The position numbers were made by a program, and so were the translations under genes. From positions 1-53,341 of the forward strand of contig JAKPXB010000037.1 of assembly GCA_029570375.1 (NCBI GenBank): a stretch of DNA of 53,341 nucleotides, given 5' to 3'. The notes below the pieces were generated by a model that saw only the letters and a list, made by a program, of their open reading frames with translations, was not told the DNA's origin and searched no databases. This stretch comes from Bacillota bacterium (lineage in GTDB: Bacteria; Bacillota; Clostridia; Saccharofermentanales; DTU023). Positions 12,963 to 14,505 of this stretch are shown in pieces (positions within the stretch are counted from its first letter, which is position 1; every line of letters begins with the position of its first letter).

Positions 12963-13190
12963 TACACTTTTCCTTAAAAAATGAAAGTTAATCCGCTTTT
13001 CCATCGGAAAGACCGCCCGCAATAAAGGAAGAAAAAGCGATTCATACTGCCACGAACGCCGCAGCCAAAGCGGGGGGCAAAAAGTAACGAGACACCTGCT
13101 GGTCTTTCCTCTCTTCTGAAGCCAGGCGTCCAGCAATGGCCAGAATTTGCACTTTTGCAGAAATTGAGACGATTATTTCCTGAAAAAGCA

Positions 13191-13220
13191 ACAGACCCGA
13201 GGCACCACTCTCGGGTCTGT
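13191..13220 (-). terminator. Strong hairpin before the orphan leader transcript
   Basis: ACAGACCCGAG (13191-13201) pairs perfectly with CTCGGGTCTGT (13210-13220) around an 8-base loop. On the minus strand the stem is followed by TGCTTTTTC, so it could end leftward transcription. On the + strand it has no T-run and could form the 5' structure of the short transcript at 13243. Confidence 0.5.
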
Positions 13221-13242
13221 CAATCAATTGGAGGAGAAAAGT

Positions 13243-13287
13243 ATGAAAATCAGGTTATCAACCTTTCTGACAACATCTGTATCTTAA
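13243..13287 (+). CDS. Putative 14-residue leader peptide
   Basis: MKIRLSTFLTTSVS, preceded by GGAGGAGAAAAGT, one of the strongest ribosome binding sites in the window. Its codons run through the left arms of two nested stems and the TAA lies in the inner loop. No gene follows on this strand: the next gene (13401-14123) is antisense and a terminator intervenes. This makes it an orphan leader or a tiny gene in its own right. Confidence 0.4.
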   Translation: MKIRLSTFLTTSVS

Positions 13288-13310
13288 TCGATACAGATGT
13301 CGAACCTGAT
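13249..13310 (+). ncRNA. Nested stem-loop over the leader peptide
   Basis: The inner stem CATCTGTATC (13274-13283) / GATACAGATG (13290-13299) is perfect over ten pairs with a six-base loop. The outer stem ATCAGGTT (13249-13256) / AACCTGAT (13303-13310) encloses it. A ribosome translating the peptide would melt both stems, the layout of an attenuator, but no regulated gene lies downstream. Confidence 0.45.
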
Positions 13311-13340
13311 AATCATTTGTGAATAAACAAAGAACAATTG

Positions 13341-13378
13341 AAAAAAGAACGCCCCTCGCGCGGACGAAAGGGGCTTTT
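13341..13378. terminator. Bidirectional terminator
   Basis: GCCCCT (13351-13356) pairs with AGGGGC (13369-13374). TTTT follows on the + strand, and GTTCTTTTTT follows on the minus strand. It can end both the short rightward transcript and the zinc-ribbon gene. Confidence 0.75.
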
Positions 13379-13400: not shown

Positions 13401-14123
13401 CTATTTTAATTTCGTAATAGCTGTTGTCAGGAGCGCTGCCTCGTCGGCGGGCTGCTTAATCAGATATCCGCCATCCGGGGTGGCAATTCTGAGCGTGACA
13501 GGCTTTCTTGTCTTCGCGAATGTCATATCCTCTATTCCCAGCGCTTTCGCGCGGACATCGCAGTATTTATGGAACAACCCGACACTCTCTTCCAGGGTCA
13601 GATCTTTGCTGAGCACAACAGAAGCACTCGTACTTCCCATATTCTGAATGACAAGATCGTTCTCCTTGTTGATCTCCACGGGCAGCTCCGCCGCGAAAAG
13701 ATCCGCGATCTCCTTTTGCTGCTTCCCGCGCTTGTTGATGGTCGGGAAAGCGATCGCCGCGAAAATACCGATAAGAGCGGCCGTGATGCCGATCATGAGG
13801 AAAATTGTCTTGACCGGAATCTTGAGGGACGGCACTTTCTTCTCAGGGAGGACATACTCATCAGCCACTTCCTTCTTCGCGCCGGATTTCTTCTCGAAGA
13901 CAGGCATGGGCCCGTGCTGCATTTGAACCGGCGTCAGAGAAGGCCCCTCATACTTCGGTTGAGGTTCATTCGGGAATGTGAATTCTTCCGGATTGGTTGA
14001 CGCCCGGAAAGCATCTTCGTTCTTGAACACGCAGTCACAGAAAAAGCAGTGCCCCTCCGGCATATTCGGATCCAGAAAAAGAATTGACCCGCAGTTGACA
14101 CAGCGTCCTTCTTGTAATGCCAT
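13401..14123 (-). CDS. Zinc-ribbon membrane protein of unknown function
   Basis: A 240-residue protein starting at ATG 14123 (GTGGAGAT about eight bases upstream). The N-terminus holds a zinc ribbon with two CxxC pairs (CVNCGS and CFFCDC), followed by a charged, proline-rich linker. One transmembrane helix (FLMIGITAALIGIFAAIAF) comes next, then an extracytoplasmic alpha/beta domain of about 110 residues. Such zinc-ribbon/TM proteins are common in clostridia and mostly unnamed. It is a single-gene unit with the terminator at 13341-13378. A sensory or envelope role is possible but unsupported. Confidence 0.8.
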   Translation of the reverse strand: MALQEGRCVNCGSILFLDPNMPEGHCFFCDCVFKNEDAFRASTNPEEFTFPNEPQPKYEGPSLTPVQMQHGPMPVFEKKSGAKKEVADEYVLPEKKVPSLKIPVKTIFLMIGITAALIGIFAAIAFPTINKRGKQQKEIADLFAAELPVEINKENDLVIQNMGSTSASVVLSKDLTLEESVGLFHKYCDVRAKALGIEDMTFAKTRKPVTLRIATPDGGYLIKQPADEAALLTTAITKLK

Positions 14124-14505
14124 TGTTAAATCTCCACTCTTTATCATTCATGCCGGACTTCCAGTCATCAAGCTGACCCGGATCTGGCAAAAGCCCGGCT
14201 GTCTTTACCATCAGCCATGCGGATTGTTTCCGGCCGCCCGGCTCCATCCGACAGAGTTACATCAGCATCTTACCACAGAGAAGGAGATGAAACACAAATA
14301 AATATTACATGCCGCCACATTTCCGACCATGAACTGTGGCCGGACGGTACCGTCCATAGCAACGGGCGCTCCCCGGATCACCGCTGTATGGACACCTTAC
14401 ATAGTGCGTCATCATTCGGGGGGAAGTAAACAAACGGCAGCCGCAGGCGTGGTAAGATTAGGGGCAGGTAACGATGCGCCGCAAAAACCGGGAGAAGTGC
14501 GTAAC
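14124..14505. other. Intergenic region without recognised features
   Basis: These 382 bases lie between the divergent zinc-ribbon gene and tadA. I see a short palindrome (GGACGGTACCGTCC near 14342-14355), and no tRNA, riboswitch or convincing small gene. Confidence 0.4.

Follow-up and report, generated by a model that had tools for sequence, protein, structure and literature searches.

Small RNAs that pair with Shine-Dalgarno (SD) sequences, of the kind represented by LhrC and RoxS/RsaE, are established in the Firmicutes (PMC4132741, PMC5880928, PMC4409812). In Listeria monocytogenes, the LhrC1-5 RNAs pair with SD regions through CU-rich single-stranded stretches; oppA is down-regulated in this system, and expression of the RNAs depends on the two-component response regulator LisR (PMC4132741, PMC5880928). 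RoxS/RsaE, an sRNA conserved among Firmicutes, has C-rich regions to which SD sequences can pair; a conserved box lies upstream of it, and its induction runs through ResDE/SrrAB (PMC4409812).

The locus described here lies in a 53,341-nucleotide contig of a clostridial bacterium (Saccharofermentanales, DTU023), called the window below. We read it, with a probability of roughly 0.72, as a gene on the minus strand for a trans-acting sRNA, a segment of which would block the SD and start regions of mRNAs. The predicted RNA is about 92 nt long (13183-13274, minus strand), its promoter, segment and terminator all being conserved in the minus orientation, and, judged by sequence only, it fits the class of base-pairing trans-acting sRNAs, having its own predicted promoter and intrinsic terminator within an intergenic region. 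The comparison of related genomes supports the strand, the promoter, the segment, the terminator, their conservation and the neighbourhood, as far as these can be read from DNA, and we infer the transcription of the sRNA, its activator, pairing, repression and the identity of its targets.

Like LhrC, this RNA would carry a pyrimidine stretch complementary to the SD sequence, and the targets of LhrC include a gene for a substrate-binding protein, oppA. Whereas LhrC has three redundant CU-rich sites, one of them in the terminator loop, and occurs in five copies in Listeria, the present RNA has a G/U-rich terminator loop and a single copy in the genome of the window. It resembles RoxS/RsaE as another SD-complementary Firmicute sRNA, but differs from it in both segment and terminator. 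Scans with Rfam models, of the window at the gathering thresholds and of the element together with four loci at E <= 10, returned no LhrC, RsaE, T-box or other family, and the sub-threshold matches look like chance. Because neither LhrC nor RsaE was matched in these scans, the RNA is filed as a new family of the SD-blocking class; by analogy, it probably works like LhrC or RoxS/RsaE while being a member of neither. Its terminator loop, GUGGUGCC, resembles the T-box motif, GGUGGNACC; a T-box riboswitch was considered and rejected, given the lack of a model match in the Rfam scans and of a consistently controlled downstream gene.

The preliminary description had placed the element on the plus strand, as the transcript of a leader peptide with nested hairpins, and the motifs that it listed are all present in the window. 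These are the GGAGGAG at 13230-13236, the ORF of 14 codons from the ATG at 13243 to the stop codon at 13285-13287 (translation MKIRLSTFLTTSVS), an inner hairpin described as having 10 bp and found to have 11 (ACATCTGTATC/GATACAGATGT, 13273-13283 with 13290-13300), the loop of which holds the stop codon, an outer stem of 8 bp (13249-13256 with 13304-13311), and a next gene that is antisense to the putative leader. The terminator reported to follow them exists as a GCCCC...GGGGC hairpin at about 13351-13374, but it scores as a terminator on the minus strand only. The 251-nt region folds with z = -5.6 relative to dinucleotide shuffles, beating 200/200 of them, and contains an additional strong hairpin, at 13191-13220.

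An attenuator or a short peptide gene on the plus strand thus has in its favour, within the window, a strong SD and ATG, a stable fold and nested hairpins, yet neither the ORF nor the stems are conserved. From the conserved ATG, the relatives encode MKIRLSTFLTTSVS, MKFRAQTF, or MK, MNKK and MKEGG directly followed by a stop, among others, with lengths from 2 to >20 codons, while the inner stem retains 3-8 of its 11 pairs and the outer one 0-7 of its 8, which is about chance pairing beyond close relatives. A conserved plus-strand promoter region was sought in the aligned relatives, and none was found. The constant plus-strand stretch, GGAGGAGAAAAGTATGAAA, is the complement of the minus-strand segment; the GGAGGAG...ATGAAA "leader" is nothing more than that segment in reverse complement, and the 14-codon ORF (13243-13287, plus strand) is taken as a by-product of the same complementarity. 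The class of leader-peptide attenuators, marked by a conserved leader ORF and alternative stems before a gene on the same strand, was therefore rejected; the leader of a lost resistance gene and the peptide gene that had also been considered are likewise unsupported, the ORF varying between relatives. The suggestion of a free-standing regulatory RNA had the kind right, in view of the minus-strand promoter, segment and covarying terminator, but the strand wrong.

The first hint of a gene running the opposite way is that, in a scan of the consensus, both GC-rich hairpins are terminator-like on the minus strand only. Among 38 distinct members, internal G-U wobbles number 24 when the stem is read as minus-strand RNA and 4 when it is read as plus-strand RNA (binomial p = 0.0002, an optimistic value because the members are related); with the stem ends included the count is 25 vs 20, and wobbles at the ends, chiefly a loop-closing A-C mismatch, were trimmed from both kinds. 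The RNA is placed on the minus strand because of this 24 vs 4. The 10 nt past the hairpin contain on average 6.4 T on the minus strand vs 4.0 on the plus strand. With wobbles and terminators favouring the minus strand, and the next gene antisense, we regard an attenuator or peptide gene on the plus strand as very improbable.

Read on the minus strand, the gene is preceded by three TTCACA-like repeats with a spacing of 11 bp (13307-13334, individually 13334-13329, 13323-13318 and 13312-13307). Upstream of the box a column carries 0.22 bits, in the repeats 0.89, 1.48 and 0.96; some distant members have a repeat spacing of 10, 12 or 13 instead of 11. From this pattern they are likely an activator site, with a presumed regulator. 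A TnGnCA block, conserved by column counts (13298-13303), stands 11 bp upstream of the -10 box, TAAGAT (13281-13286), which is TATAAT-like in the relatives and has an invariant A2 and T6 in 21 loci; the spacing of the block is too short for a canonical -35, and the -35 region is non-canonical. The 5' end of the RNA was placed near 13274 from the -10 box and its 3' end near 13183 from the T-run. Between them lie the conserved pairing segment, UUUUCAUACUUUUCUCCUCCAAU (13227-13249), near-invariant as UUUCAUACUUUUCUCCUCCAAU and complementary to a ribosome-binding site (SD) plus an AUGAAA start, and the intrinsic terminator (13191-13220), recognised by its covarying stem and minus-strand terminator score, with the loop AGUGGUGC and a U-run to about 13183. 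U-runs are weak in several members.

In the mechanism that we propose, an activator bound at the TTCACA-like repeats would probably switch the promoter on, transcription would begin near 13274 and end at the terminator hairpin and its U-run, and the conserved segment UUUCAUACUUUUCUCCUCCAAU would pair with the SD and AUG(AAA) regions of target mRNAs, so that ribosome binding on these would be blocked.

An alignment of 21 loci in the minus orientation has a common box, TGTTnnnnnnTTTATTCACAnnTGATTATCA, the -10 box, a drifting 5' part, the segment TTTCATACTTTTCTCCTCCAAT, an 11-bp hairpin and a T-rich stretch, in that order, and the boundaries of conservation coincide with the minus-strand promoter box and the minus-strand terminator. 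Per column, the -10 box holds 1.06 bits of information, the 5' part 0.56, the segment 1.72 and the stem about 1.5; the sequence drifts on either side of the near-invariant segment. The 11-bp terminator helix is paired in 99.5% of cells, with two-sided changes in 7 of the 11 pairs, in an alignment that includes the sequences from which the structure was defined and whose related members make the counts non-independent; slid controls gave nothing comparable. The segment is predicted to be unpaired with a mean of 0.65 vs 0.40 elsewhere, the value being higher in 29 of 33 members, which makes it an accessible conserved pairing segment by prediction, although the minimum free energy fold of the RNA from the window pairs part of it with the 5' region.

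Upstream of the RNA and on the same strand lies a gene (13401-14147, minus strand) whose product, an uncharacterised zinc-ribbon protein, is predicted to have a membrane segment and matched no Pfam or NCBIfam family. At each of the 30 best loci its homologue adjoins the RNA, in the same order and strand, while the other flank varies, and its gene order is conserved with tadA, an acyltransferase and hflX. This constant company raises the alternative that the RNA is a 3' UTR of the zinc-ribbon gene, processed or reached by read-through, and acting in cis or released from the mRNA; in the same direction points genus g4, in which another gene directly follows the zinc-ribbon gene and the RNA is absent from that site. 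Between the gene and the RNA there are, however, the conserved -10 box and upstream repeats and, in the window and some congeners, the GCCCC...GGGGC hairpin (13351-13374, minus strand), which is more likely the terminator of the zinc-ribbon gene. Diverged homologues of the RNA in family f4 also occur without a zinc-ribbon neighbour in the flanking stretches examined (L267-L271). A 3' UTR is accordingly, in our estimate, an improbable explanation, though less so than an element of the plus strand.

Regarding its distribution, the region of the element is single-copy in its own genome; of 39 relatives, 22 match it at the DNA level. A model of the segment and terminator (R1, the E-values of which are rough) matches 50 of the 188 genomes of the order, mainly in families f1 and f3, and 3 of 291 genomes in a sample of the class, namely the own genome and two weak matches. 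Carriers include Mageeibacillus sp. UBA1046, UBA5438, a Fastidiosipila sp. and congeneric DTU023. In four genomes (G007, G008, G012 and G049), which are fragmented or incomplete, neither the zinc-ribbon gene nor the RNA was found. Weaker homologues occur in family f4, with a CTTTTTCATT segment and a GAGUAGUGG loop still present; in L267-L271, diverged homologues from genomes of this family, the segment is CUUUUUCAUU and the terminator loop again GAGUAGUGG.

Some members in f3 have a second anti-SD sequence (ACCUCCUUC). Genomes of the same family contain paralogue-like loci (L262, L263, L264; L265, L266) with either CUCCUCCUUUUCUCCUCC or one CUCCUCC, and downstream of it terminator hairpins whose loop is once more GUGGUG or AUGGUG; a doubled CUCCUCC occurs together with the GUGGUG loop in such loci. 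In the genome of one relative, G001, contigs C53 and C95 (L010, L009) both stop within the element, where the strong hairpin probably broke the assembly.

Candidate targets were sought as sites complementary to the segment. With up to 3 mismatches to the complement of the 19-nt segment, the own genome has a single other site, the start of a gene for a PstS-like lipoprotein, and in 21 genomes many of the matching sites are starts of genes for substrate-binding lipoproteins. At up to 3 mismatches, 38 sites were testable, of which 14 belong to lipoproteins by regular expression, or 17 with those that the expression missed added by eye; for comparison, the expression found 15 lipoproteins when applied to 253 genes sampled from the own genome. 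A control pattern with a permuted spacer (a single permutation, and targets taken from pattern matches and sampled stretches) gave 46 matches, with lipoproteins at 9 of 24, one of them doubtful. Because this share is similar, we attribute the lipoprotein bias to genes with a strong SD and ATGAAA in general, and specific targeting of lipoproteins or substrate-binding proteins was not accepted as proven, the control having about the same number of matches. When about 300 kb of the own genome, carrying home-made gene calls, were ranked by duplex energy, lipoproteins were weakly preferred (p = 0.03), and 0 of 60 shuffled segments were as strong; this is suggestive only, and the PstS-like locus had been deliberately included in the sample.

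The PstS-like lipoprotein itself (own contig C46, 4553-5545; L173:1554-2546) matches TIGR02136 in swapped order, positions 161-291 of the model coming first and then 31-160, and a similar swapped pattern occurs in G002, G018, G020 and G024. From these matches it is apparently a circularly permuted protein of the phosphate-binding type.

The searches having given no specific target set, the segment and the GUGGUG loop might have as their main partner not mRNAs but a protein, a sponge target or, by mimicking the 3' end of 16S rRNA, the ribosome. Many members share the loop despite changes in the stem, and the pyrimidine tract resembles the anti-SD sequence, both in keeping with such a role. Conservation, on the other hand, reaches beyond the anti-SD core into the complement of AUGAAA, and the loop motif is missing in several members, and we consider this role unlikely, slightly more so than a 3' UTR.

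For the trans-acting sRNA that we prefer, two regulators come to mind. Clade pst-like genes carry TTTACA-N5-TTTACA boxes, which are similar but not identical to the TTCACA-N5-TTATCA of the sRNA; no PstS match was found in several of the carriers searched, and, with differing boxes as well, Pho-box control was not retained as proven. ResD is a further lead, suggested by its box. It was not adopted as the regulator, since the RoxS paper (PMC4409812) backs the analogy and not the assignment. In its most ambitious and quite speculative form, which we hold to be doubtful, the proposal would be that of an sRNA present throughout the order, with a segment of 22 nt that is the mirror of an ideal ribosome-binding site plus AUGAAA. 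Such an sRNA would repress strongly translated "MK..." lipoproteins as a class (ABC-transporter substrate-binding proteins, the PstS-like one included) under two-component control, and its GUGGUG loop would be bound by a partner.

Taken at the strength given above, the locus adds a predicted sRNA family, absent from Rfam, in little-studied and mostly uncultured Clostridia, the relatives of Mageeibacillus and Fastidiosipila. The segment is far more conserved than its surroundings, and its targets and regulator are therefore testable. The case also illustrates how an anti-Shine-Dalgarno sRNA, when read on the wrong strand, may mimic a leader-peptide gene.
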